Virus record (IMG/VR): IMGVR_UViG_3300035698_012898 | Span: 1 to 64,000 of that record | Source: a virus | Strand: one strand, 5' to 3' | DNA length: 64,000 bases | In this document: in pieces, positions 3,284-37,582 of the stretch | Layout of the letters: each line of letters opens with the position of its first letter | Numbering within the stretch: the stretch's first letter is position 1 | Program-made: the position numbers and the translations under genes | Notes under the pieces: generated by a model | What the model was told of the DNA's origin: nothing | Seen by the model: the letters and a program-made list of their open reading frames with translations, nothing else | Database searches by the model: none

Positions 3284-3775
3284 TTATCCGGGCCAATTAT
3301 CACGGACCCACGCCACTGCTATACGAACACGGTTCGTTGACACACCAAAACAAGCACCCATCCTACTAACAGTTGGAAGCCTTCTACCTTTGTCCATACC
3401 AAAGACCTTAAACGACCATGCCCAATACAACTCAGGTCGTGCAATGATCTGCAAGATAGCCAAACAAACGCCATCATCAGTCTGCCCACGCAGGTATTCA
3501 ATGGCGTCGTGTATAACCGTACGACGCATAACTGTCTGACAAAACGCGCAAGGCCAGTCCTCCCTCGTCAAGCCTACAAAACGCTTCTCTCGACGTAACT
3601 CCATACCAACAGCACTCCGTACTACACGCCGCACATAACCAGACTCCGGGTCTAACGCTTGGTCCGGCGCATACTGCAATAAACGGCAGCACGTCTCCTG
3701 AGCAACGTCTTCACGCAGCCGAGCGGGGATTGACGCCGTAGCCTTAGCCAGGACATCCAACAGCGGGATACTCAA
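3284..3775 (-). CDS. Sigma-factor-like protein (degenerate sigma-70/ECF type)
   Basis: 163 residues from a TTG at 3775 that overlaps the previous stop as TTGA, with AGGAGG seven bases before it. The first part (RLREDVAQETCCRLLQY, then YVRRVVRSAV and RREKR) resembles sigma region 2 of ECF-like sigma factors. The last part (LPTVSRMGACFGVSTNRVRI) reads as a helix-turn-helix like region 4. A CAFC pair lies between. Likely an alternative sigma or sigma-like regulator for phage genes. Similarity is weak, so another helical DNA-binding protein remains possible. Confidence 0.55.
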   Translation of the reverse strand: MSIPLLDVLAKATASIPARLREDVAQETCCRLLQYAPDQALDPESGYVRRVVRSAVGMELRREKRFVGLTREDWPCAFCQTVMRRTVIHDAIEYLRGQTDDGVCLAILQIIARPELYWAWSFKVFGMDKGRRLPTVSRMGACFGVSTNRVRIAVAWVRDNWPG

Positions 3776-4386
3776 AGCGCTTCCTCCTCTCCAAGACTTT
3801 CTTCCATGCAACCCAATGGCTCCTCAGCTTCTTCCGGCACCACACAAGGTGCCTCTTCTAAGGCAGCCTCACGCATTGGAGACACGTCACCCAACACACC
3901 GCCCTCCGGGATCACTTTGCCGTTGACCCGTAAGGGCCGGACGCCTGCTTTGTTTGGCGGCGCGTTACTATATAGAATCGTAACTGCCTCGTCACCCATT
4001 TCCTGTATTGCCATGCGTGCGTCTCGTGCCAGCAACTCGACAGTGTCACCCTCTACGGCCTCAAGCATGGCAATCAAGGAATCTACCTGGACAACAACGC
4101 CCGTTTCCCTAATTCCGCCGCTAACAGACAGTTCACGCACGTAAAAAGCCGCGGCGGAACCAAGACGATCTTCCATAAGCCTTTCATCGCGCAGCAACAT
4201 CGTTACCCCATGAGGACACTTTTCCTCAACAGCGCTCGCACGAACACCACGTGCCACCAAAGCGCGTACTGGAGACCCATCATTGCTTATGGCAATCACG
4301 CACGCATCGCCATACTCATAAAGGTCAACGCAGGCTTTTCCGTCTTCCCCACGTGGTAGGTTAAATATCATATCCGTCACGTTCAT
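3772..4386 (-). CDS. Hypothetical protein with acidic C-terminus
   Basis: 204 residues from ATG 4386, nine bases after GGAGG. The stop overlaps the start of the sigma-like gene, so the two are translationally coupled. The first 150 residues look like a mixed alpha/beta domain. The last 40 residues are strongly acidic (EEAEEPLG, EESLGEEEAL). No family recognised. Sitting between the SNF2 helicase and the sigma-like protein, it may belong to the same replication or transcription-control operon. Confidence 0.75.
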   Translation of the reverse strand: MNVTDMIFNLPRGEDGKACVDLYEYGDACVIAISNDGSPVRALVARGVRASAVEEKCPHGVTMLLRDERLMEDRLGSAAAFYVRELSVSGGIRETGVVVQVDSLIAMLEAVEGDTVELLARDARMAIQEMGDEAVTILYSNAPPNKAGVRPLRVNGKVIPEGGVLGDVSPMREAALEEAPCVVPEEAEEPLGCMEESLGEEEAL

Positions 4387-4390
4387 AGCC

Positions 4391-6271
4391 TTAATCCTCC
4401 CATGCAAGGTGCTGAAGAAAGTCCCGCTTGTTCAAAGACACAACGCTCTGCCCTGACCGAGATGTAACCCCGCGCACCGCTTCCTGTTTCTGCATCACCA
4501 TCCTGTCAATGTATCCGTCCAAACTCGGCCTAAGCAGAAGCCGTTCAATCACGACAGTACGGTCCTGCCCAATCCGATGTATCCTATCCTGCGACTGCGA
4601 CCAAGACAATAACGACCAGTCCATCTGAAAGTACACAGCATGCGCTGCCCGTTGTAAGTTATGCCCTTCACGCAAGGCGGCTACCGTAGCCACCAGCACA
4701 CGAACGTCGCCTGACACGAACCCTGCTAACGCCTGCGTCTTCTCCTGTCCTGGCAACCCACCGTAGACCCTGGTAACAAACCCGCCACCAAACTTCTCTA
4801 CAAGCCTCTGACGAATTGCATCTACAACATTGCGATGCACACACCATACAACAACCTTACCTGTTGTTTCATTCAACGTCTCCAGCAAGGCGTCAAACTT
4901 CGCCGACGCAGTACATGCCGGATCAACAACCTCTGGCATTGCTGCCGCACGAATCACACGCTGCATACCTGCCGCCAAGTTGCTTCCGGGACGCACACGA
5001 ACGACGTCCCCCTTCTCCTGCTTGACCCAATGTGTAAGATCATCCCGAATGCCATTGAGCAACGTACGCTGTGCCTTGCCCGGAACGGGCTCCCGTACCT
5101 TGTATATCTTCTCGGGCAGCCCCAGACATTCCGTCTTAGTCCGACGTAAGGATACCGCAGCCACCTTGGCACGCAGCCCCGCCAAGTTCTTGAACCCCAC
5201 AGTCTTCTCAATCCTACGCGGCCCATACTTAGTGGCCACAAACATATGTTCTACATCACAGTACTCATGACGATGCGCACGAAACGACCCACCTAGTAAA
5301 CGACCACCATCCAAGTAATGAATCTGTGACCATACATCTTCCGGCCCCTCAGCAAGCAGTGTACCTGTCAGTATAAACCGCACACGAGCTACGGCAGAGA
5401 CACTACACAGGACGTTCGTCGTCTTAGCAGACCACGACTTGATCTTGTGACTCTCGTCTAACACAAGTGCCGTTGGTTGCGCTTGCAATAACGTCAACAA
5501 CCCATGAGCATCCTTGTTCAAGGGTAATCTACGTCTTGTAAACGCATTCACGATAGTCACGTCTGCTTGTCCCTGGCCAGGACTACGCCCAAGCAACTCG
5601 TAATTCACTATGTACACATCCGCTCCTACTGACCAATCCCTATCCCGTGGAGGTAAGCCATAAAGCCGGCGCACACAAAGCCATGGTGTGTGCTGACGAA
5701 TCTCCCGCTCTCAATGCGCTACCAGATCCGGCTTGCAGACAATGACCACCGTTGACACCACACCGCCAGCCTTAAGGTCTGCTACTGCATAGATAGCTTG
5801 GATAGTCTTGCCCAAGCCGCACTCGTCAAGCAAGGCGAAATACCCGGTACGCTCACCAGCATCTATCATACGCACGATACCTTCAATCTCATGCACATAA
5901 AGAGGAGTCTGCGTAATAGTGCCGTGAGGCAGCTTTACCCGACGCCGACTATAAGAGGCCGGAACGGTGCCTTCCTGAACCACACCGCAGGAGGAATTGC
6001 GGCCGGAAGCTGCACCACGTATAGGTTCAGCATCATGGACACACATTACACAGACTCCTTTGTGTGCGCACGAGACACGTGCGCTGTAAACTACACTAAC
6101 GGGCAAACTCCACAACCCCATAGCAAGCAACGAGACGCGGGCCTCGGCCTTCTCAGCCCTAGCACATTCAGAAGCCCTAAGCACTTGTGCGCTACCCAGT
6201 ACACGCTGCATCACAGCCTGCTTGGTGGCCAAAGCATCCTCAAGCATAGCAATCTTCTCTTGTATCTTCAT
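4391..6271 (-). CDS. SNF2-family (DEAD-like) helicase interrupted by one in-frame TGA
   Basis: Reads in a single frame from ATG 6271 (AGGAG eight bases upstream) to 4391 as 626 residues, except for a TGA at codon 187 (5711-5713). Motif I is DECGLGKT (149-156), motif II DESH (272-275), motif III LTGT, and motif VI QDRIHRIGQ near the C-terminus, typical of SNF2/RapA-type translocases. The TGA follows VIVCKPDLVAH and precedes EREI. This is where SNF2 proteins usually carry a conserved Trp (as in SLLxxWxxEI), so a TGG to TGA change is the simplest reading. If real it gives a 186-residue fragment holding only motif I and leaves the other motifs untranslated unless the stop is suppressed. The N-terminal 120 residues hold several Cys and may bind metal. 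Role: DNA remodelling in replication or recombination. Confidence 0.85.
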
Positions 6272-6329
6272 TGTCATCTCTCCTTTTTGTGACGTGCGCG
6301 TCACCCGGACCCCTTTGTATGTGCTGGCA

Positions 6330-6926
6330 TCACCCATGCTCTGACATCTCTTCCTCACACCAGCACCCAAACCAACCACCACGCCGCAACAGCGGCCTAT
6401 ACAACTTCCGTAGCGCCCTCATCTCCTTGGCATAATCTGTACAGATGTTTGGCCAGATGTCCATGTAAATTACACTATACCGTCCAGGATACAAGGCATC
6501 CGGCGGATCGAACACATTGCCGTGAAGCACGGTAACCTTTCCGCCTGATGGTAACTGGGGTGCCACCAAAGTAATCACGTCTTGTTGTTTCTCGACAACA
6601 GTCACCTGATTTACTGCCTCCTTGGTGCAGGCACCGAGGACGGTCATACCCATGCCAAGACCGCCTATAAGAACGTCGCCTCGTGCCTGTTGCAAAAACT
6701 CGTCATTAGTATCACGCTCCATCTCGGTGTCGCTCATCACCAGTTCACCGTCGATTAGGAGGCTCATGTAGTCCCCCTCCGATACACACTGACAACGGCC
6801 CGGATTAAGCGCTTCCCTCAATCGGGACAGACTGGCAGCTTGCGTATCAACTGTGAACCTCTTGAGTTGTGCAGAACCAATATGCCCTTCCTGCAAAACC
6901 TCGGCCATCCGTGGAAACTTCAGCAT
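6330..6926 (-). CDS. SAM-dependent methyltransferase / spermidine-synthase-like Rossmann protein
   Basis: 198 residues; the ATG overlaps the stop of the previous gene and follows GGAGG. It shows a class I Rossmann core: GDVLIGGLGMGM (motif I), VTVVEKQQDVI (motif II, acidic end of strand 2), VLHGNVFD (motif III) and VIYMDIWPN (motif IV). The order matches spermidine synthase-like methyltransferases that find the product by position. Substrate unknown. Its place between the MoxR/VWA group and the SNF2 helicase may hint at modification of nucleic acid or protein. Confidence 0.75.
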   Translation of the reverse strand: MLKFPRMAEVLQEGHIGSAQLKRFTVDTQAASLSRLREALNPGRCQCVSEGDYMSLLIDGELVMSDTEMERDTNDEFLQQARGDVLIGGLGMGMTVLGACTKEAVNQVTVVEKQQDVITLVAPQLPSGGKVTVLHGNVFDPPDALYPGRYSVIYMDIWPNICTDYAKEMRALRKLYRPLLRRGGWFGCWCEEEMSEHG

Positions 6927-7849
6927 TCCATCCTCCTTTGCTTACGTGACTTATTCTGTCTCTGTTGCCGACGCGCTTCCGCACGACGTGCTCGACAAAT
7001 CTCCGTACACTTGTCCAGCTTGGCCGCAGTCTGTTCTGCAAATGCCCGAATCTCAGCAAAGCCCGCCGCGGACCCGAGCGTATCCCGATACACCTTGATC
7101 CGCCTAACAAGCTCACGCAACTTCACAGCACGGTGCGCGAAGCTAGACGGCTTCTGGTCAGCCAATGCGCGGAGCAAGGGCAATGCCTCCTGTACAATCT
7201 TCTCAACGGCTTCCTTAACGGACGACAAGTACACGGTAGCAATATCCTCTGCCTCTCGTGTACCCGCTACAACCCGTAAACGATTCAAGCGCACCTCCCC
7301 ACCCGTATTGACAGCAGAACCAATCGCTGTCTCCAAGGTAGTAAGCACATGCGCGTATCCACTTGGGACAAAGTACACACCACCGGTCTCCCGTATAGCC
7401 ACGCCACAAGCAAGACGAACAATCACGTCACGCAACAAACAGCCAACCTCAGCCGCCAACAAACCCCCACTCGTCGTGGACAATGCTTCCCTAACAGAAC
7501 GGGTAAACCCTGTGTCCATCTTGAACCGAACATCCCCAGTCCGCTTATCCAACGTCACCACCTCACGTAAAGCCCCGCGCCAACTCTCCGTACCCAGATC
7601 GGTATGCTCCTCAACAACAGCGAAACTAACCTTTATACCGTCCTCACCAATCTTACGTATGGTTCCTTCTGCAACAGCTTGGTCAATTGCACGTCGAAGA
7701 TACGTTGCCGGTTCAGTCTTCTTAGCCTTGGCCTTGATCCCTGCCTCGTCCAGAGCATTCTGGACGTCCTCGCGCTGCATGTACACGTTACGCAAAGACC
7801 AGCAAACGATCTCGCCGTATCCGTCAGCACCAACATCCTGCATATTCAT
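6920..7849 (-). CDS. Hypothetical phage protein of the MoxR/VWA group
   Basis: 309 residues; the ATG sits in an ATGA overlap with the VWA gene, behind GGAGG. No catalytic motif is evident. It has an N-terminal domain with SLRNVYMQREDVQNAL, a central beta-rich part and a long helical, basic C-terminus (RRAEARRQQRQNKSRKQRR). I suspect it belongs to a phage family of unknown function that travels with MoxR/CobS-like ATPases and VWA proteins, but cannot confirm this. Translational coupling implies a joint complex with the two upstream proteins. Confidence 0.75.
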   Translation of the reverse strand: MNMQDVGADGYGEIVCWSLRNVYMQREDVQNALDEAGIKAKAKKTEPATYLRRAIDQAVAEGTIRKIGEDGIKVSFAVVEEHTDLGTESWRGALREVVTLDKRTGDVRFKMDTGFTRSVREALSTTSGGLLAAEVGCLLRDVIVRLACGVAIRETGGVYFVPSGYAHVLTTLETAIGSAVNTGGEVRLNRLRVVAGTREAEDIATVYLSSVKEAVEKIVQEALPLLRALADQKPSSFAHRAVKLRELVRRIKVYRDTLGSAAGFAEIRAFAEQTAAKLDKCTEICRARRAEARRQQRQNKSRKQRRMEC

Positions 7850-9819
7850 CCTTGTTTCCTCCCGTGATTGCCATTGCCATCATCAAACCGATAGAACACA
7901 TTGCGCGTTACCGCGTCAACCATCCTTCGTATCCCAACCTCCATCGTGTCAGTACCAGATGCTACTACCACGTCAAAGAAGTAAGAGTTAGCCTGCTCTA
8001 CCGCAGCCAGCGCAGCCGCATCAGGTGACCCACCAAGAAGAACAAAGCCAAACAACCTGCATCCACGTGGCAAACCGTGCTCACGAATTTTCTGGATTGC
8101 CTGATAGGCACGAACAGCCCTCTCATCATAACTGTTGTTACAATGCCCACCCTGCAAGTATTGTTTAACCGCATCAGGACTAGGAGCATCACCCTGTCCA
8201 TCCGTCACGTAAAGCACATCCGCCATCTCAAAGTTGCCAACAAACTTATCCCGAAACAAACTAGGCAATCCCGTCAACGCCCTTACAAATGACGTACCCC
8301 CAGACGGCTGAAGGCCAAGACATTTACTAATCGCCTTGGCATATCGTGCCCTGCTAGCGTGCCTAGCCTGTGCCTCAAAGATCATCGCAGAATCACGACA
8401 TAACCCGGCAGTGAACGGCACAATAGCAAAGTCCCTACCACGACGCCTGGCATACTGCGCCATAGTCAGAGCGAACGCACCAGCAATTGCATGTCGTGTT
8501 ACCCTTTGCCCCCTAAACTTCGTCGTGGTCCCCATAGACCCGGACGTATCCACCAAGATTACAAACGGCCCATGTCCGCCATCGTCTACTGTCAACCGCT
8601 CCGCTTGTAGCAACGAAGCATCAACAAGACGGGCATAGTGCAGTACGTCCAACCCGTCATCGTCAGCAGCCAAAACGTACTCACTAGGCATCATCCTAAC
8701 ACGATCACCACCCAAGGTAACGCCTAGCATTTCACCATCACCATGCAAAGACGCTACCATAGCGTCCCCAACAATAGAATCCATTCGGCCTAAAATTGAC
8801 AAGACGGATGCATAAATGTCAGTAATACCGTCACCACGAATAAGCAACTCTGCCATCGCCTTAATAGAAGCCAACTCAGCAAGGTCGCCTTGTGGATCGA
8901 TATAAGTGTGCCCTATGCCTGTCCCTGTCAAATCACGCACCAGCTTATCAACTGTATCAACGCCTTGCTCCATGCCAGATGAATCCAACGCAGACCTTAA
9001 AGATCTAAAAGCGTCACCCAAATCCATTACAGGCAAAGAAACACTTTCCTGTTGCTGCTCGTCTACTGAACCCCCTTGTTGCTGGCCGCCTGGAGCATCC
9101 CCACTACCACCAGGCTCTTCACCGTCCTTCGCCTTAGCTTTATCCTTCTCTTCCTGTGCAGCTTCCTTACCAGCAGCGGCGCAGGCAGCAGCTAATCCAC
9201 CAGCAACCTTCTGTTTCTGATTCGTCATCTCTTCAAGAATCATAACAGCAGCAGCGGCAGCACGCGCAGGCTTACCCGCAACGGCAGAACGTATTGCCAA
9301 CCAACAATCACCTTCTTGTGCGCTTCGTAATAATCCAAGAGCAATAGGTGACCGTGGGTTAGGGTCCTCTACCATTTCCCGCATTAACAAAGAGCGGTAC
9401 AAATCACCAAACACTGTGTCCACACAAGCCTTCCCATTATAAACAACATCACGTACAAGTAAGTTGGCTTTCTCTTGCCTCTCCAGAGAAGGCATCCCAT
9501 AATAAACAGGCCACCCTTTGAGCACCCCCTTTAGGACACCTTTGGTCACATGCTTATATAGCGCGTCCAGCGTGCCTGCTAAAGAATCTCCTCGATGCAA
9601 AGCACGAACCAAAAACCTGTCAAAATGACTTGGCTCCTGAAGATACGGTGACCGAACATTATACTCTGCTACCGACAACATCCTATGCGCCGAAACCGCT
9701 ACACCTGAAAGAGACTCGGAAACATGCACCCCAGGCAACCTGTAAGCAGATGCCGCCTGTGCATCTTGCCCTCGTGGTAGCTTCTTAAACGGTACGATAG
9801 CCCGGCTTTTAGATAGCAT
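7846..9819 (-). CDS. CobT/ViaA-like protein with C-terminal VWA domain
   Basis: 657 residues; the start overlaps the AAA+ gene by 11 bases and follows GGAGGG. Residues 420-640 form a von Willebrand A domain with the MIDAS motif DTSGS (424-428) and a later VTDGQGD. Residues 200-265 are a charged, Gln/Gly-rich linker as in CobT. In bacteria such proteins pair with MoxR, CobS or RavA ATPases to insert metals or remodel proteins. The phage pair probably acts as a chaperone-like machine on an unknown client. Confidence 0.85.
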   Translation of the reverse strand: MLSKSRAIVPFKKLPRGQDAQAASAYRLPGVHVSESLSGVAVSAHRMLSVAEYNVRSPYLQEPSHFDRFLVRALHRGDSLAGTLDALYKHVTKGVLKGVLKGWPVYYGMPSLERQEKANLLVRDVVYNGKACVDTVFGDLYRSLLMREMVEDPNPRSPIALGLLRSAQEGDCWLAIRSAVAGKPARAAAAAVMILEEMTNQKQKVAGGLAAACAAAGKEAAQEEKDKAKAKDGEEPGGSGDAPGGQQQGGSVDEQQQESVSLPVMDLGDAFRSLRSALDSSGMEQGVDTVDKLVRDLTGTGIGHTYIDPQGDLAELASIKAMAELLIRGDGITDIYASVLSILGRMDSIVGDAMVASLHGDGEMLGVTLGGDRVRMMPSEYVLAADDDGLDVLHYARLVDASLLQAERLTVDDGGHGPFVILVDTSGSMGTTTKFRGQRVTRHAIAGAFALTMAQYARRRGRDFAIVPFTAGLCRDSAMIFEAQARHASRARYAKAISKCLGLQPSGGTSFVRALTGLPSLFRDKFVGNFEMADVLYVTDGQGDAPSPDAVKQYLQGGHCNNSYDERAVRAYQAIQKIREHGLPRGCRLFGFVLLGGSPDAAALAAVEQANSYFFDVVVASGTDTMEVGIRRMVDAVTRNVFYRFDDGNGNHGRKQG

Positions 9820-11053
9820 CCTGATCCCTCCCCTGCTGCGATTCTGCCTTAAACAGCAAGTCCTCCGCCTGGTCTACCAAAGATGACACCCGATCACGCG
9901 CCTCCCCAGCAGACACGCGGTCTACAATCTCACCAAGCGTTACGAGCGCGTTAGACAATAAAGTACCACGCTCGTCACCCGAAGCCTTCTCAGCGGCACT
10001 GAAAATCTCTTCAGCTTCCTCCACAGCAGAAACCTCTGCCTCGACAATCGTCTGCGTCGAATAGACAGCTAACATCTCCTCCACCACCGAAGCATGTTCC
10101 GCAGCCTCCCAGAGCACGTATTTCAAAGCGGCAAAGTCAACCGTGTCAGCTACGGATACACCACGCAACCATGCCGATGCACGGATTATGTTCTCCGCAT
10201 GTTTCCAACGCCGCATGCTCAACACAATTTCCTTCTCAACCATGCTTGTACGTAGCTCGAATAGCTTGTCTAACAAAGCTGACGTAATCTCCACCCGCGC
10301 CGCGTCTTGAATCGCCTTGCGAACATCCTCAATACCTAACAACGGCTTCTCCATACTTGGAGAAAACTCTGGTGCCTGCATCATCTTCACGAACATCAGA
10401 CGATCCCCCAACGGCAAATACTTTACCTCCATCCGCATAAGCAAGCGGTCATAGAACGGAGAGTCCTCATCCCTGTACGGAAATGTATTCGAGTCGCAAA
10501 ACAATGACAACAACGGCACAGACAACCGTTGCCCCCCATTGTCAATATACCGCTCGTTAATAAGCGTATGCAAAGCAGCACGAGTCGCACCATTAGCGCG
10601 AAACACTTCCCCGATAAAGGCAAATGGTGCTTCTGGTAGTAGACTCGTTACACTCCGCACCCATCGATCATCCTCACGCAATGCCTTCAGAGAATACTGT
10701 CCGAGCAACACTTCTGGCGTAGTCGTTTTGTCCAAGTTCGCATGAAACGTCTCGTCACCTACACCAAGCAAATGCGTGTACAGGTTAATGGCTAACGTCT
10801 TGCCACAACCCCACCTTCCAACAAACAAGACATGCTCACGTGCTAACGTAGCAAGCACCATCACATCAATCATACCTGCTTGCCCAACCAAATACTTCTG
10901 GGCCGTCTCACGAAGCCCCAAGAATCCCGCTACGATCCGCTTACGTTCTTTGGCCGGCAAGACACCGTTGCTCGATGCCTTTTCTTCCTTGGTAAGGTCC
11001 TCCTCCTGGCCCAAACCGGCTTGGGCCGTCACGCCGCCCTTCACCTTTTTCAT
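9809..11053 (-). CDS. MoxR/CobS-like AAA+ ATPase
   Basis: 414 residues; AGGAGG eight bases before ATG 11053. Walker A is GRWGCGKT (79-86). The Walker B region reads FAFIGEVFRAN where MoxR proteins have a FLDEIFKAN-like sequence: the Glu is kept but the Asp is Gly. Sensor 1 reads FCDSNTFP. The C-terminal helical domain is complete, so the protein looks intact despite the odd Walker B. Partner of the VWA protein encoded directly downstream. Its leader matches, with two mismatches in 30 bases, the leader of the gene at 11716. Confidence 0.85.
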   Translation of the reverse strand: MKKVKGGVTAQAGLGQEEDLTKEEKASSNGVLPAKERKRIVAGFLGLRETAQKYLVGQAGMIDVMVLATLAREHVLFVGRWGCGKTLAINLYTHLLGVGDETFHANLDKTTTPEVLLGQYSLKALREDDRWVRSVTSLLPEAPFAFIGEVFRANGATRAALHTLINERYIDNGGQRLSVPLLSLFCDSNTFPYRDEDSPFYDRLLMRMEVKYLPLGDRLMFVKMMQAPEFSPSMEKPLLGIEDVRKAIQDAARVEITSALLDKLFELRTSMVEKEIVLSMRRWKHAENIIRASAWLRGVSVADTVDFAALKYVLWEAAEHASVVEEMLAVYSTQTIVEAEVSAVEEAEEIFSAAEKASGDERGTLLSNALVTLGEIVDRVSAGEARDRVSSLVDQAEDLLFKAESQQGRDQDAI

Positions 11054-12036: not shown

Positions 12037-12345
12037 CTAGCGGTCGCCCCATCCAAGCAAGTCAGAAATCACACCGGGCAGATAGCCGATCTGTGTGCCT
12101 TCACTCAAGTACAAGATGTCCGGTTCGTCGCCGTCCTTGAACTCGAACTTCGGCGAACCTTGCTCACTTTCCCATTCTCGTGCATGCGCATTCCGCGCTG
12201 CCTCTTTACGAGCATCTTCATCAACAAGGATAACCTCGTTGATACTATACTCCATTGCCCAACGCGGCTGCATTGCAAGCCGAACCTTAACGTCATCGTC
12301 TAGGCCGTCAAGCTCTTGCCGAAGGCCACCTACCGTGATACTCAT
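12037..12345 (-). CDS. Conserved-looking small acidic phage protein
   Basis: 102 residues; AGGAG precedes ATG 12345. Starts MSITVGGLRQELDGLDDDVKVRLAMQ and ends with YLSEGTQIGYLPGVISDLLGW. From memory this layout, an N-terminal ELdgldpda-VRLA and a C-terminal EG-QiGYLP--ia--LGW, matches a widespread family of small phage and actinobacterial proteins of unknown function. Probably cytoplasmic. Confidence 0.75.
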   Translation of the reverse strand: MSITVGGLRQELDGLDDDVKVRLAMQPRWAMEYSINEVILVDEDARKEAARNAHAREWESEQGSPKFEFKDGDEPDILYLSEGTQIGYLPGVISDLLGWGDR

Positions 12346-12366
12346 TGTTCTTTCTCCTGTGTTTGC

Positions 12367-12391
12367 CGTTCTTTCTTGTAGTCATTTTATG
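12367..12391. repeat. 25-bp perfect inverted repeat, left arm
   Basis: Exact reverse complement of 12688-12712, with 296 bases between the arms. It overlaps the stop codon of the short ORF at 12382-12483 and lies 22 bases outside the start codon of the 102-residue protein. A match this long cannot reasonably be chance. Confidence 0.9.
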
Positions 12392-12483
12392 AACGGAATC
12401 TCACCGTTGTCAGGCATGGCCCATTTAAAAGCGCCCCACTGATTTCCCGCAGCGACGGGGTTCCATACAAAAGCAGATTCCAT
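12382..12483 (-). CDS. Possible 33-residue protein or 3' end of a frameshifted gene
   Basis: From ATG 12483, MESAFVWNPVAAGNQWGAFK... to a TGA inside the left inverted-repeat arm. GAGG lies about 13 bases upstream of the ATG (10 for a GTG just before it). The frame is protein-like and remains open upstream to about 12566 without a good start. A different frame (12525-12626, beginning MSDGRDGKRLPNLV) also looks coding. Together they could be one gene of about 80 residues broken by a one-base shift. Function unknown. Confidence 0.35.
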   Translation of the reverse strand: MESAFVWNPVAAGNQWGAFKWAMPDNGEIPFIK

Positions 12484-12687
12484 CACTAGAATCTGACCCT
12501 CTTTTCGGGCTACCGACTCAGGGATTATTGCGCATGGGGACTTGTATGCGCGGACTCTCGATTAAGACGTTCTAGGGGCCCTGTCACCAGATTAGGCAGG
12601 CGTTTGCCGTCACGGCCATCGCTCATACTTCGAGGCGCGGCCACCGGCGGTACCTGCTGTACCCTGTCTCTTTCCTCTGACAGTCTA

Positions 12688-12712
12688 CATAAAATGACTA
12701 CAAGAAAGAACG
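12688..12712. repeat. 25-bp perfect inverted repeat, right arm
   Basis: Exact reverse complement of 12367-12391. In a minus-strand transcript the two arms could pair into an uninterrupted 25-bp helix closing a 296-base loop. As DNA they could be terminal repeats of a small element or of an invertible segment. Confidence 0.9.
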
Positions 12713-13634
12713 AACAATGTCTTCCTCTCGACACCCTATCCAAACCAAACAAGGCGTCTAGGGGAAGACGTTGCTTAGTAGGACCAAAGTCCGTTCACCA
12801 ACGCCCTTCCTCGCGCTATTTCTACACGTTCATTCGCGTGAGCTTGCACCGTTGATGCATCCCAAAGATTGTTGTCCATCGCCGTACCGCTTGACCGGGC
12901 TCCATCTATCCGATGTGCCCTGTCCTGCCGCTACGTTCTACATGCTCACCGATTCTCGGCGACCGATTACCACACTGGGTGACCCCGTTACGCTGTCTGC
13001 CTCTGGTACTCGACGTACACTATGGGCTGCCACGTTTTTTGCAGTAGGTTTGGTGTCGTTCACCGGAAGCTGTCTGGGCTGTTGGCACTCGACGCGCGCT
13101 TATCCCTGCCACTTCCGTCCTCCAAACCGCGTCCCGAACTTCATTCCCGCTCTGGGCACCCGACTGGATTGCGCTGTAACCTTTCTACTGCTTCGAGGTA
13201 GGTCGTCCGCCAGACGTTAATGCAACTCCATCTATCAGATGTGTTGCATCTTAATAGCCCGACGATTCTCCGAGGGCTGTCTGACCGATGTGGTCTGCCG
13301 TCCTCGTTCTTGAGCACGCAACGATGACTGGCTCCTATAGCCTCGTCATCTTCTGCGAACCGCGTCCGCTTTGTTTCCCTATGCTTTGCAGCCCCGTTTG
13401 GGAGCCTGCGCCGCTACCAGCCTGCCGTGTCCTGTAAGGAGCGGAGATGCTAACCTTACCCGGCCTCTTTGACAAGCCTTCTCGCTGATTCATATGTCAA
13501 TACGTTGTCGCTTGCTAGCGACCCTATCGTCGGCGGAGTACCGTCCTTCGCCCCACCGACCGCTTCAATTGTCTTGGCCTGCCTTGTCAAGTGCCGTGGG
13601 CCAAACCGGCACGACCGCCCGAAGGCGGTTTCGG
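12690..13634 (-). ncRNA. Candidate large structured non-coding RNA (about 0.9 kb)
   Basis: The longest stretch without a convincing gene; its boundaries are approximate. Minus-strand hairpins: ACCGCC-TTCG-GGCGGT with a cUUCGg loop (13629-13614); GTGCCG/CGGCAC (13612-13591); a 10-bp stem 13560-13551 with 13538-13529 that needs two G-U pairs valid only on the minus strand; GTCGCT-AGCA-AGCGAC (13522-13507); GATGAC/GTCATC with inner GGCT/AGCC (13350-13323); and a 16-base module repeated at 13248-13221 and 12920-12897, closed by different but complementary stems. It lies downstream of a strong promoter. Large ornate phage RNAs such as GOLLD and ROOL are the nearest known idea; I cannot assign a family. 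Confidence 0.5.
13447..13475 (-). promoter_or_regulatory. Possible sigma70-type promoter inside the RNA region
   Basis: TTGTCA (13475-13470), 17 bases, TAGCAT (13452-13447) on the minus strand. The -35 box is good and the -10 box fair. If active it would give an RNA starting near 13440 and exclude the first four hairpins. Confidence 0.3.
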
Positions 13635-13871
13635 CTACGTCGTATATAGAACATACCATTCATTGTTATGCACACGAACCTGATACGTGCCGTCACCATG
13701 ATCACGTAGCCGCGCAAAGTCAAACCGAAGCCAGATCGCCTTTGCTGCATCACTTGGACAGTCCTCCCCGCGGAAGCAATTGCTAAGCGTATACGCAATA
13801 CACCGAGTGACCGATCCGAAAACCTCGTCAATCTTCTTTGTCCTATTTTTCGCTATCGTTCTTACCTTCAT
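13635..13871 (-). CDS. Small hypothetical protein
   Basis: 78 residues from ATG 13871, eight bases after AGGAGG. Basic N-terminus (MKVRTIAKNRTKKIDEVFG) and a C-terminus DGTYQVRVHNNEWYVLYTT. First gene after the strong promoter at 13921-13949 and directly upstream of the candidate RNA. No family recognised. Confidence 0.75.
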   Translation of the reverse strand: MKVRTIAKNRTKKIDEVFGSVTRCIAYTLSNCFRGEDCPSDAAKAIWLRFDFARLRDHGDGTYQVRVHNNEWYVLYTT

Positions 13872-13920: not shown

Positions 13921-13949
13921 AGTATAGCAAAAAAAACGTCAAAAGTCAA
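13921..13949 (-). promoter_or_regulatory. Strong sigma70-type promoter
   Basis: TTGACT (13949-13944), exactly 17 bases, TATACT (13926-13921): five of six matches in each box, in an A/T-rich tract. Start of transcription would be near 13914, giving a leader of about 43 bases before ATG 13871. It should drive the 78-residue gene, the candidate RNA and possibly the MoxR operon. Confidence 0.8.
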
Positions 13950-14025: not shown

Positions 14026-15078
14026 TCACGTCAATGCCAGCCGTTTAGCCGCGCGAATGACATTAAAAAGAACGTCCCTAGGACTCCCTCCAAGGTAAGT
14101 ATTTTCCGCAGCGTCATTTATAAGAGGGGTCCATGGCCGTGACAGCAAGACGTTTGCACATCCCGCGTCCACAAGACTCCTTGCTACCATCTCCGCTGCT
14201 TCATCCGCACCATAATCCAACGCCACAATTATCCTTGTAAACCTTTGCGTCAACGTCCGCGCTTGAGCACCAGATACCGTACTCCCCAGCAGCGCCACTG
14301 CCATACCGGGCAGAGCAAGCACATCCATCGGACCCTCGACCAGCACGATTAACTTCCGCACAGGATGCACAGCATGCAGCCCATACACCGTCCCGCCTTT
14401 GCCAACACCAGGAGCATGATAACTCTTTGTCGGATACCCTTTACGCGTGCCTTTGAAGTCCGTAGTGCGCGTTGTCCAATGTACGAGCCGATCATCCTTG
14501 TATTCTGGAAACACAATGTGACCTTGGTAACGATCACCAATAGGCTTCCGTTCTACAAACAAAAGCCCATACTGTTGATAATGGGCGGGACCGAAGCCCC
14601 GCCCATGGAGATAGCGACGACCTTCCATTGCAGAAGGTGACGCGATGGGAACACATCCAAGAGGCAACAACACAGTTGGTTGTTCACCTTTCATTGGCAA
14701 AGCCGCCTTCAGAAGAAGACGCATACCACTTTCTAATGGACGATGATCATCTACCCATAGCTTAGCATACTGTCCTTGTCCAGATACTAACTCTGACGCA
14801 CGTTTAATAGCATCGTCTCTCGTAAGCTGTTCCAAGTCCATCAGCAAGCCGACAAGATTCCTCGCATATCCGCAACTGAAACAGTGCACCACTGCTTTCC
14901 GCACATTAAAGTATAAATGCCCAAGCGTCCCGCAAGAAGGGCAATCCGAAATCATTTCATCAGGATTCCCGGATGATACTGCACCAAGTGTCTCCTCACC
15001 AAAGTCTATCATGCAATCTGTAGCAACCCCCATAGGCGTTCCACCAATATACATATCCGCATCGCCTACAAAGCTCAT
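14026..15078 (-). CDS. DNA primase (CHC2 zinc finger plus TOPRIM)
   Basis: 350 residues from ATG 15078, which overlaps the helicase stop as ATGA and follows GGGAGG by nine bases. The N-terminal zinc-binding motif (CPSCG...HCFSCG) binds template DNA. A TOPRIM domain shows VLVEGPMDVLALP (catalytic Glu) and VALDYGADEAA (acidic pair). No helicase domain is fused; that function is in the upstream neighbour. Together they would prime lagging-strand synthesis for the PolA-type polymerase. Confidence 0.9.
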   Translation of the reverse strand: MSFVGDADMYIGGTPMGVATDCMIDFGEETLGAVSSGNPDEMISDCPSCGTLGHLYFNVRKAVVHCFSCGYARNLVGLLMDLEQLTRDDAIKRASELVSGQGQYAKLWVDDHRPLESGMRLLLKAALPMKGEQPTVLLPLGCVPIASPSAMEGRRYLHGRGFGPAHYQQYGLLFVERKPIGDRYQGHIVFPEYKDDRLVHWTTRTTDFKGTRKGYPTKSYHAPGVGKGGTVYGLHAVHPVRKLIVLVEGPMDVLALPGMAVALLGSTVSGAQARTLTQRFTRIIVALDYGADEAAEMVARSLVDAGCANVLLSRPWTPLINDAAENTYLGGSPRDVLFNVIRAAKRLALT

Positions 15079-16472
15079 GGTATGTAACCTCCCTTCGACC
15101 ACCCTTGCGTTGGGCACTGTCGGATAGTCATCGTACTTGGGTCAACAAAGCAATCCACCACAGTTGTGTCCCCACCTCCGAGCCTGTTACCAAGCATAGC
15201 CATTCGCATCCTACCCTTTTCCTTTTCAGCGTCCGTCTGACAGATACCAATTATTACATCAGCAATCATTACCTTCTGAAGATCCGCAGACACATCACTC
15301 AGACGAATGGTTTGCTTTGTGTAACTCGCACGATTTGTTTGGGAGGCTGTCCAGACAGCGCAGTTGAAGTCTGAAGCAAGTTGACGTAGCTCCGTAACAG
15401 TGTGGCCTATATCTGGTGAATCCCATTTCTGCTTCTTGCACACGAGCAAGTCTGCATAATCTACCAGCACCACGTCCATTTTAAACCCCGACTCTGCTTC
15501 TATTGCTCGTAGCCAAACGTACAAATCCCCCATCGTTGCACAATTCGATCCCCACTGCTTGATAAACACTTGACCTTTAAGAGCTATTGTTGCTCCAGCT
15601 ACCGCTGCCCTATGCGCCAATGGTTCTGCCGCCAAGGCATTAACGGCTATACCCGTATGATGTCCATCCAACCGCATAGCGTAATCTTTTTGACTAAGCT
15701 CAAAGGTAGCTATTGCAACATTATTTCCAAGAGCAGCCGCAGAAGCAGCAGCTTGTGCTAGAAACAAACTCTTGCCCTTTTTAGTTGGCCCCATGATAAG
15801 ACCAAGTGTGCCTATTTCCAAACCACCACGCATTAGTTCATCAAGGATTGGTATGCCTATTGGTGCGTGTTTAGCCATCTTCTTATGCTCTGCATATAAG
15901 CGCAACTTACTTACAGGGTCATTATAATTTATACCAAGATCCTTACTAACATCCTGACCGCGTACTGCTGCCTCAACCTTGCTTAGTATGCCTGTAAAGT
16001 CATCTTGATCCCATAACTTTACACTTGCTAACAAGGCATCACGAACACGGCTCTTAGTCAAAAAGGTTCCTACGGTTTTCTTAACGTGTTCGGCAGTTGT
16101 ACCGTTCAACGTAGGCCGTTGCACCAGGTCCCGACAAACACGTATAGCGTCTTCGTATTGTCCGTGTCTTGCAGACTTGGCAGGCATCACGTTGTACATG
16201 CGGACTAACTCAGAAAGGACCCCCACGACTCCGACAGGCTTGTTACTGGATGTACCATACAATGTTCGTGCTGCATGATAAATAATTGCATGCGTAGAAA
16301 TTGTAAATACATCTGCTCCTACTACTGGCAATAAGAGTCCTGCAAACTGCAAATCAAACAAGACAAGCCATACTACTGCCTGTTCAAACTCTTTGCCGTA
16401 CTCACGTTCAAATTGAATAGGCACTGGGGAAGTACCTACATCAACAGGGATATTCAAATCAACCTTTGTCAT
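15075..16472 (-). CDS. DnaB-like replicative helicase
   Basis: 465 residues. A helical N-terminal domain (about 1-180) is followed by a RecA-like ATPase: Walker A GPTKKGKS (228-235), a DnaB-type FELSQKD segment, Walker B VVLVDYADLL, and a WTASQTNRAS segment like the DnaB QLNR motif. It unwinds DNA at the phage fork and partners the primase, whose start it overlaps. First gene after the lysis terminator, so a promoter in 16473-16720 is expected. Confidence 0.9.
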   Translation of the reverse strand: MTKVDLNIPVDVGTSPVPIQFEREYGKEFEQAVVWLVLFDLQFAGLLLPVVGADVFTISTHAIIYHAARTLYGTSSNKPVGVVGVLSELVRMYNVMPAKSARHGQYEDAIRVCRDLVQRPTLNGTTAEHVKKTVGTFLTKSRVRDALLASVKLWDQDDFTGILSKVEAAVRGQDVSKDLGINYNDPVSKLRLYAEHKKMAKHAPIGIPILDELMRGGLEIGTLGLIMGPTKKGKSLFLAQAAASAAALGNNVAIATFELSQKDYAMRLDGHHTGIAVNALAAEPLAHRAAVAGATIALKGQVFIKQWGSNCATMGDLYVWLRAIEAESGFKMDVVLVDYADLLVCKKQKWDSPDIGHTVTELRQLASDFNCAVWTASQTNRASYTKQTIRLSDVSADLQKVMIADVIIGICQTDAEKEKGRMRMAMLGNRLGGGDTTVVDCFVDPSTMTIRQCPTQGWSKGGYIP

Positions 16473-17870: not shown

Positions 17871-18215
17871 TTATTCCCCCGATGAAGATGTCTCTTGTTC
17901 GACCTCCTCAGCAAGGGCAGCTTGTGCAGCAAGTGCTTTGGCCGTTACTTGCTGCTGCTGTTGTTCAGCAACAAGGGCAATGAATGTCCGAAGCGTACGG
18001 CCTGCTAACTGGATAGTAGCATGTTCATCCAAATAGCCTCTGTACCCTCCGTCAAGACCACTAGCTGAGGCTGTCTCCAGGATAAGCACAGCATCCGTTA
18101 CCGTCATGTTTGGAACTGGTAGGATACGATCTTCCTTAGCCATGTTCCAACAGATGACACCTGCAATCGTAGCCGCAAGAAACGCCACTAACACCATACC
18201 TAGAATCTGTTTCAT
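17871..18215 (-). CDS. Single-pass membrane protein, possible inner-membrane spanin
   Basis: 114 residues from ATG 18215, seven bases after AAGGAG. A hydrophobic segment at 4-25 (ILGMVLVAFLAATIAGVICW), then a soluble helical part with a Gln run (EQQQQQ) and an acidic end. N-terminal anchor plus helical periplasmic part in the lysis cluster fits an i-spanin, but the coiled coil is short. A simple membrane accessory protein is the alternative. Confidence 0.55.
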   Translation of the reverse strand: MKQILGMVLVAFLAATIAGVICWNMAKEDRILPVPNMTVTDAVLILETASASGLDGGYRGYLDEHATIQLAGRTLRTFIALVAEQQQQQVTAKALAAQAALAEEVEQETSSSGE

Positions 18216-36481: not shown

Positions 36482-37582
36482 TCACTTGTCGTGGCTCACG
36501 TCAACAACTTCCATATCCCGCAAAACACATAAGAGATTGCGCACCCTGGCGGAATTAGTATGGTATTCAATGACATGCTTTCGCCCGCAATTCCAAATAT
36601 GATCTGCCACGTTCGGATGCTCCAATAATTCACGGATCTTTTCAACGCACTCTTCAGGTGAACGATAAGAAACGTATGACTCCCCGTCTACAAAGCCATT
36701 CGGGATTACGATCTTGAGTTCGTCTGCTACCAAACAAGTAACAGCTGCCGTCTCCCAATATCGACACGTATCATATCCAGCACCCCGCACACTGACACCA
36801 ACCCTACTACGACCCAAAAGACACAAGTAGTCATTCCAACTTACCCACGGCTTGTTTTCCGGATGTGGAGACAAATGACATGCAATATACGTTTTGTACT
36901 CAGCATCGAGCACCCGTAAAGCTTCGGCAACCTTTGCGCGACTTGGATGTGTCACGCCAAGGAGCATAGATACATCTACTGCACTATCCCGGTGCTCCGC
37001 AAACACAGGGGCAACACAATTTGCCGGAACGCTAAAGGGAAATGGGAGCACAGGAACACCCGCAATCGTATCCAGGTTAGACTCTGTTGGGTACTCCCGT
37101 TTCAAAACCACAGTTGGATGCACATCGTTCTTAATCACGTTCAGAACGTTACCTGCTATTCCCCAAGAGTCTTCACCATCATGCAGGACAACAGGTGCAC
37201 CAGATATTTCTATGTCTTTAGCAAGTTGCCTATACGCCGTTACTGGACCAACTCTTGCAGACTCAAGAACCACCAATGAAATATCACCGCGCCGCAACAT
37301 CGCAGAAACAAGATGAAACTGATCATTCTCTGTTACTGCGAACGGCGTCTGCCCATAGTTTACACCGCATGCATGATGTGGCATCCAAACATAAGAGGAT
37401 ACGGACATAGGGTCTCGCATACCCCCTATCGGAACAAGGTCCGTACCACCGTGGTACGCCTTCTTAATCGGGAAGTCATATACGTTTGCAGCGCCAACTA
37501 CCTGACAGAACCCATTGAACAAATACGTCGCACCGTAATCCGCCCCAACGTTGGTCAAGATCAATACGTTAGTTCCGGCCAT
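36482..37582 (-). CDS. Glycosyltransferase (GT-B, GT4-like C-terminal domain)
   Basis: 366 residues; ATG in a TAATG overlap with the upstream methyltransferase, behind GGAGG. The N-terminal half is a Rossmann-type domain (VLILTNVGADYGATYLFNGF). The C-terminal half has LLGRSRVGVSVRGAGYDTCR, YWETAAV and YVSYRSPEECVEKIRELLEH, typical of GT4-like sugar-nucleotide binding. Donor and acceptor unknown. Last gene of the carbohydrate island. Confidence 0.75.
   Translation of the reverse strand: MAGTNVLILTNVGADYGATYLFNGFCQVVGAANVYDFPIKKAYHGGTDLVPIGGMRDPMSVSSYVWMPHHACGVNYGQTPFAVTENDQFHLVSAMLRRGDISLVVLESARVGPVTAYRQLAKDIEISGAPVVLHDGEDSWGIAGNVLNVIKNDVHPTVVLKREYPTESNLDTIAGVPVLPFPFSVPANCVAPVFAEHRDSAVDVSMLLGVTHPSRAKVAEALRVLDAEYKTYIACHLSPHPENKPWVSWNDYLCLLGRSRVGVSVRGAGYDTCRYWETAAVTCLVADELKIVIPNGFVDGESYVSYRSPEECVEKIRELLEHPNVADHIWNCGRKHVIEYHTNSARVRNLLCVLRDMEVVDVSHDK

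Follow-up and report, generated by a model that had tools for sequence, protein, structure and literature searches.

The giant RNAs of phages are a long-standing puzzle in RNA biology, and the making of their ends is mostly obscure. GOLLD RNAs, for instance, are often found near tRNA islands (PMC12286853). Arrays of hammerhead ribozymes have been proposed to cut long phage transcripts to gene-length mRNAs (Perreault et al. 2011, PMC3088659), and the passages of that paper that deal with this imply mRNA processing without stating a stop-codon rule. In its treatment of type II hammerheads, the same paper gives a pseudoknot between loop I and the 3' tail as a typical, majority feature, and reports that U3-A8 covariation in the core occurs in several natural hammerheads, with in vitro activity cited there. 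Here, we describe a locus where such a hammerhead lies exactly at the front edge of a predicted large RNA, for which reason the phage probably cuts this RNA from a longer message with the ribozyme.

The stretch of DNA analyzed here (the window) comprises bases 1-64000 of an IMG/VR virus record of 78,715 bases in total. The capsid protein is only ~28% identical to those of known phages (of Rhizobium, Vibrio, and Streptomyces), and the phage therefore appears to be an orphan without a close relative; searches with the primase and capsid retrieved only relatives of ~23-38% identity, and no relatives of the MoxR ATPase and helicase were found in viral_contigs. On the minus strand, the order around the locus is DnaB-type helicase, primase, 78-aa ORF, gene-free block, 102-aa gene, small genes, MoxR-type ATPase, and von Willebrand-domain protein, the last two standing side by side at 7846-11053 in a phage and adjoining replication genes. 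Elsewhere on the minus strand of the window, 62541-63557 encodes a protein with HNH and AP2 domains, likely a homing endonuclease. Locus L068 contains two adjacent similar minus-strand ORFs (14095-14634 and 14672-15190), both with ILAIDVSTKRLSCA and RuvC-like by eye, which form a tandem duplication. TGA is the commonest stop codon (18 of 44 genes); the standard code therefore applies, and an alternative genetic code is ruled out. A single in-frame TGA at 5711-5713 (minus strand), between the ORFs 6382-5711 and 5674-4391, interrupts an SNF2-type helicase (..CKPDLVAH*EREIRQH..), the frame of which is open for 439 codons after it. The residue at this position is usually Trp, and since other genes use TGA as a stop, we read the codon as a nonsense change, a sequencing error, or a read-through site. 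The features of the locus are as follows:

15075-16472, minus strand: DnaB-type helicase gene, near the block
14026-15117, minus strand: primase gene, adjoining the region of the 78-aa ORF and the block
13921-13949, minus strand: sigma-70-type promoter, TTGACT-17-TATACT with extended TG, 10 of 12 consensus matches
13635-13871, minus strand: 78-aa ORF (ATG at 13871, AGGAGG at 13885-13880, TAG stop at 13637-13635; coding score 0.17 per codon)
13573-13637, minus strand: predicted type II hammerhead ribozyme with a U3-A8 core, per RF02276, a descriptor, and hand reading
12713-13612, minus strand: likely large structured non-coding RNA core, ~900 nt, per fold statistics and absence of coding signal (27 helices with mean pair probability of at least 0.85)
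13219-13250, minus strand: hairpin module copy 1, AUGCAAC-A-CAUCUGAUAGAUG-GA-GUUGCAU
12897-12920, minus strand: hairpin module copy 2, GGGC-A-CAUCGGAUAGAUG-GA-GCCC, with the apical 16 nt of copy 1 and another complementary outer stem
12713-12775, minus strand: long hairpin ending the structured core (stems 12775-12771/12717-12713, 12769-12763/12725-12719, and 12758-12747/12741-12730; mean pair probability 0.88-1.0)
12367-12712, minus strand: perfect 25-bp inverted repeat (12712-12688 and 12391-12367) around 296 nt
12474-12495, minus strand: weak terminator-like hairpin, CAGATTCTAGTGATGGAATCTG-CTTTTG
12037-12345, minus strand: next gene, 102 aa (own SD AGGAG at 12358-12354; 0.28 per codon)

The strong upstream promoter named in the first-pass annotation of this DNA was located at 13949-13921. 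It is near consensus with ideal spacing, but promoter-scan counts over a 5-kb stretch barely exceed those of shuffled sequence (7 vs 4.5). The 78-aa ORF, placed between this promoter and the large RNA, retrieved no PHROG match and no tblastn match and belongs to no known family.

In this otherwise gene-packed record, the minus strand is free of genes from 13634 to 12346 (~0.9 to 1.3 kb). The same annotation had described ~0.9 kb without a credible gene, and coding analyses bear this out. In none of the six frames does the codon score rise beyond a level near or below that of out-of-frame sequence (in this genome, genes average 0.24 per codon and out-of-frame sequence -0.13), and the six read-through frames yielded no match to PHROG at E<=1 and a single chance-level line against Pfam (E 0.09). 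The codon bias of one 45-codon frame that follows the ribozyme (13590-13456) is gene-like (9.1); the only start of this frame is a UUG inside the ribozyme core, and it lacks an SD. While the region was rightly picked out, the borders given to it earlier (12690-13634) cut through elements: hammerhead stem II already starts within the TAG codon that ends the 78-aa ORF, cleavage is predicted to leave a 5' end at 13612, and the gene-free stretch runs to 12346. A group I or group II intron reading found no support: the block sits between genes, the Rfam intron families gave nothing at E<=10 across 12300-13700, and RF01998 (group-II-D1D4-1), with 2 controls over the cut-off, did not match.

The best-supported functional element of the locus, absent from the first-pass annotation, is the hammerhead predicted from the sequence. 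Read by hand, it runs GCC-GAAA-C-CGCC-UUCG-GGCG-G-UC^GUGCCG-GUUUGGCCCA-CGGCAC-UUGACAA-GGC-A-GGCCAAG, with these parts:

13635-13633 with 13583-13581, minus strand: stem II, GCC/GGC, 3 bp, open
13632-13629, minus strand: GAAA
13628-13615, minus strand: hairpin CCGCC-UUCG-GGCGG, the UUCG-closed part of stem III (6 bp; A+CCGCC-UUCG-GGCGG+U)
13613, minus strand: H17=C, with predicted cleavage at 13613^13612
13612-13607 with 13596-13591, minus strand: stem I, GUGCCG/CGGCAC, 6 bp, hairpin-closed
13605-13599 with 13579-13573, minus strand: loop I/tail pseudoknot, UUUGGCC with GGCCAAG, 7 bp
13590-13584, minus strand: core UUGACAA

Three stems surround the core, with stems I and III closed by hairpins and stem II open, which is the type II layout. 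Compared to the consensus CUGANGA / GAAA / UH, only C3U and G8A differ, such that the 3-8 pair is kept, and both GAAA and UC17 are present. The 7-bp pseudoknot, which is not part of the Rfam score, was reached by 2% of shuffled tails. The UUCG hairpin had been noted before as a mere hairpin; it exists, but it is really stem III of the ribozyme.

An Rfam covariance-model search of 12300-13700, as suggested in the first-pass annotation, returned neither GOLLD nor ROOL, and instead a relaxed scan matched Hammerhead_II (RF02276) to 13573-13636 (minus strand) at 31.3 bits, with an E value of 4.7e-4 when 1.4 kb is searched and 0.021 when both strands of the 64 kb are; this was the best match in the window over all 4227 families. 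The score falls below the gathering score of 37 bits because the core is UUGACAA, with U3-A8 in place of C3-G8, and the related U3-A8 ribozymes of G002 and G004 score 35.5 and 31.3 bits. We would like to note that the 37-bit cut-off is a curation threshold and that the structural features of the family are present. A relaxed hammerhead descriptor passed this site as the only one in 78.7 kb, with 0 expected and none in shuffled sequence. Two further hammerhead candidates do not rise above chance level, one at 17937 (HH9) with 22 bits vs 52 and the other at 36628 with 15 bits. With no second self-cleaving ribozyme near the block, a ribozyme-flanked circular RNA (retrozyme or viroid-like) also found no support.

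Relatives of the ribozyme were sought by pattern scans. Scanning for the U3-A8 core recovered genuine relatives from two IMG/VR phages (L070 and L072), both at stop codons, as well as L224, L247, and L268 in bacterial contigs, all of which end a gene at its stop codon, and a weaker case, L251. Apart from the weaker case, these relatives have other stem sequences with pairing intact; the AGGCC tail is common to the window ribozyme and the L070/L072/L224/L247 group, and in L268 loop and tail are changed together to UGACC/GGUCA. A search with the tail pattern (GANNAGGCAGGCCAAGACAA) found one other ribozyme, in L082 and L209, with the core CCGACGA. RF02276 found no strong match in PaP3 or in seven phage records that are distantly related via the capsid or the 102-aa gene.

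The placement of such ribozymes was surveyed in 115 non-redundant, stem-checked type II hammerheads among the matches listed (loci L070-L200), with upstream ORFs of at least 45 codons. Among the matches listed, the distance to the end of the upstream ORF is at most 15 nt for 92 of 115 (control 11.8%) and at most 5 nt for 76 of 115 (66%; control 4.2%); per hit, again among the matches listed, a TAG that shares its G with stem II is the commonest arrangement and is also that of the window. The survey quantifies a pattern that was previously only implied, namely that phage type II hammerheads stand directly after stop codons and leave the ORF whole, with a cut that leaves a hairpin on both new ends. 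Given the 92 of 115, we take the ribozyme as part of the known phage mRNA-cutting element, and by analogy the locus may function as hammerhead elements do in the processing of phage mRNAs. The sequence that follows it is another matter. For 85 hammerhead loci with enough flank among the matches listed, the median gap from ribozyme to the next ORF with clear codon bias is 20 nt; in the window it is 1,230 nt, the longest among these 85, and the ribozyme here therefore appears to free a large RNA, not an mRNA. The runner-up (L147, 864 nt) proved on inspection to contain small genes with ribosome-binding sites. The survey also brought up L089 (IMGVR_UViG_3300038412_000035, minus strand, 3372-8350 of the reversed locus), which has ten type II hammerheads within 5 kb, at nearly every gene junction, two of them with the core CCGATGA (U4C); arrays at nearly every junction also occur in L143, L088, and L158, extending the arrangement of Perreault et al. 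2011.

The predicted RNA was then compared to shuffled sequence, a check suggested in the first-pass annotation. With a minimum free energy of -337.2 kcal/mol, 12713-13612 (minus strand) folds better than its shuffled versions (mean -304.1, z -4.1; 0 of 60 shuffles as good), in contrast to a z of -1.9 for the plus strand. The relative fold excess is 10.9%, and 47 genic control windows of the same length have a mean of 2.1% and a maximum of 7.9%. Base pairs with p>0.9 number 156 on the minus strand vs 59 on the plus strand, and the strand predicted to be transcribed has 2.6 times as many confident helices as the other. Local folding is uneven, however, with z values between +1.1 and -5.9 for 200-nt windows (the strongest in the block being 13201-13400, z -5.9), several of which are no better than shuffles. 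The RNA is low in U and high in purine (A 27, G 33, C 23, and U 17%). Besides the UUCG hairpin, the other minus-strand hairpins named earlier are also there, namely a 10-bp stem with two G-U pairs (13560-13551/13538-13529, mean pair probability 0.96) and a nested GAUGAC/GUCAUC stem (13350-13345/13328-13323, mean pair probability 1.0). A large structured RNA is likely in the block, and the first-pass proposal of a large, ornate minus-strand non-coding RNA, partly supported overall, best accounts for the fold statistics, the strand asymmetry, the missing coding signal, and the exact placement behind the ribozyme. As for the remainder of the window, its strongest local fold excess is at 5901-6100 (z -8.2 minus, -6.8 plus), in the N-terminal part of the SNF2-type helicase ORF, and 57701-58300 (minus strand) marks the second most hairpin-rich 1.2-kb minus stretch, at the start of a 635-aa ORF (56207-58114) and the gap before it.

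Within the RNA, a 16-nt block, ACAUCnGAUAGAUGGA, is present twice (13242-13227 and 12916-12901), with no third copy within the window even at 2 mismatches; two copies arise in 1 of 100 shuffles. Because the complementary stems below the two copies differ (AUGCAAC/GUUGCAU vs GGGC/GCCC), three of the four aligned outer pairs are changed on both sides, a count also reached by 58 of 500 shuffles, and these doubly changed pairs give a covariation hint from two copies that is suggestive, not proof. A scan of IMG/VR with the repeated-hairpin pattern retrieved 54 stretches, none with the outer stem, and a hairpin model searched against 88 loci gave nothing significant. Internal direct repeats other than the 18-nt one (D1, D8, CAGACAGC) are at about chance level. 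Beyond the ribozyme, no homologues of the large RNA were found in INPHARED, PLSDB, the phage's own genome, or ~280 fetched loci; a distant blastn search against phages and plasmids retrieved none, and in blastn against all collected loci only the ribozyme part matches convincingly.

On the 3' side, the 25-bp repeat directly follows the hairpin that ends the core. The window has no other perfect inverted repeat of 20 nt or more when arms no further than 1.5 kb from each other are considered. The 296 nt inside the 25-bp repeat are not unusually structured (z -0.73 minus, -2.15 plus), and there is a promoter-like site (12413-12384) at one edge of the segment. The repeat may be a stem for RNase III processing or may have arisen in the DNA as an inverted duplication. 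A repeat-arm-related sequence (12719-12707) is an inverted match, at 12 of 13 positions, to the SD and start region (12355-12343) of the 102-aa gene, and the repeat may therefore be an inverted duplication of that region or a switch on the gene; the segment 12367-12712 may also be an invertible segment, and the repeat may have come about at the DNA level, independently of the large RNA. A repeat arm plus AACAATG resembles the leader of the 102-aa gene, which itself has a distant relative in Gordonia phages (35% identity).

We consider it probable that a promoter-driven 78-aa mRNA and a large RNA are made in one unit, and that the hammerhead cut frees a structured RNA of ~0.9 kb with a stable folded role. 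This reading builds on what can be seen in the sequence: the ribozyme and its placement, the missing genes, the strand-specific fold excess, the repeated hairpin, and the promoter consensus. A single minus-strand transcript would start just downstream of 13921, with the order promoter, 78-aa ORF, hammerhead, ~0.9 kb of structured RNA, 25-bp stem region, and next gene. The hammerhead would cut it between 13613 and 13612, yielding upstream a short mRNA that ends in the stem III hairpin right after its stop codon, and downstream the large RNA with a 5'-OH, starting with the stem I hairpin. Hairpins at the new ends should shield both from decay. The 3' end would fall near 12713-12367, most simply by RNase III at the 25-bp stem, or at the weak terminator (12495-12474) inside. 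The freed RNA would probably be a stable, abundantly made folded RNA in infection, acting as a scaffold or as a decoy for proteins of host or phage, comparable to GOLLD and ROOL but unrelated to them; this role is the weakest step of the proposal.

Alternatively, the hammerhead could be an ordinary mRNA separator, with the following 1.2 kb a long structured 5' leader controlling translation or stability of the 12037-12345 gene and the 25-bp stem together with the 12-of-13 match serving as a switch. Block and next gene share one strand, the gene has an SD and is met by the inverted match to its start region, the promoter-like site at 12413-12384 could also serve this gene, and such ribozymes elsewhere mostly separate genes. 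Nevertheless, leaders of bacteria or phages rarely come near 0.9 kb, and a closed hairpin at 12713, ~370 nt before the start codon, terminates most of the structure; we judge a leader unlikely.

A reading in which a working ribozyme precedes decayed or newly acquired non-functional DNA, such as a dead gene or chance sequence, is improbable. The lack of homologues and the uneven local folding would suit this, as would the perfect 25-bp inverted repeat, which suggests a recent DNA rearrangement. In contrast, the six read-through frames hold no trace of a protein family, the fold excess is on one strand and above all genic control windows, confident helices are in excess on the strand predicted to be transcribed, U is low and purine high, and the genome is otherwise gene-packed. 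A DNA-level element, that is, a replication origin or invertible switch with hairpins acting in DNA, we hold to be very improbable: the primase and DnaB-type helicase genes adjoin, and the repeats around 296 bp with a promoter-like site at one edge have invertible-segment geometry, but the hairpin strength is strand-specific and uses G-U pairs, unlike DNA hairpins, no iterons or A+T-rich unwinding element were seen, and no recombinase is among the window proteins scanned against Pfam.

With the freed-RNA reading preferred, the locus can be set beside the known systems. A ribozyme that makes the 5' end allows the predicted cut to be placed at a single nucleotide, with a 5'-OH end expected in infected cells, and it provides a search rule: long gene-free stretches behind stop-codon hammerheads. 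More tentatively, and with clear doubt, the RNA could belong to a new giant phage RNA class, with a 5' border cut by a dedicated hammerhead and a 3' border by a long perfect stem, forming a folded RNA machine or assembly like, but unrelated to, GOLLD and ROOL. We found no precedent in the open-licence papers searched for a known kind of ribozyme before a large RNA such as this. The first-pass suggestion that the block may be GOLLD or ROOL was not borne out, as neither RF02032, which models the conserved 3' region of GOLLD, nor RF03087 matched at E<=10 (nor ROOL in cmscan), in searches where GOLLD was over the cut-off in none of 14 control genomes, leaving no strong positive control, and no control scored positive for ROOL. 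Similar to GOLLD, an ornate phage non-coding RNA of the 0.8-kb class with a mysterious role, and to ROOL, a large ornate RNA of phages and prophages, the block would give a large, ornate RNA in a phage; unlike them, it has no tRNA or tRNA island (none was found in the window or in L068), and unlike GOLLD it has a ribozyme at its 5' end. The window ribozyme resembles the type II hammerheads of phages and prophages (RF02276), as far as these are covered in the relevant passages of PMC3088659, in having stems I and III closed and stem II open, GAAA, H17=C, the pseudoknot, and a phage genome as its setting, and it differs in its rare but reported U3-A8 core, its sub-cut-off score, and the ~1.2 kb of gene-free structured RNA that follows it in place of a next gene. 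The Theta ribozymes of gut phages, per the passages of PMC10879173 that describe them, are likewise self-cleaving phage ribozymes that process non-coding RNA, with an HDV-like fold and tRNAs as their targets, whereas the block pairs a hammerhead fold with a large RNA.
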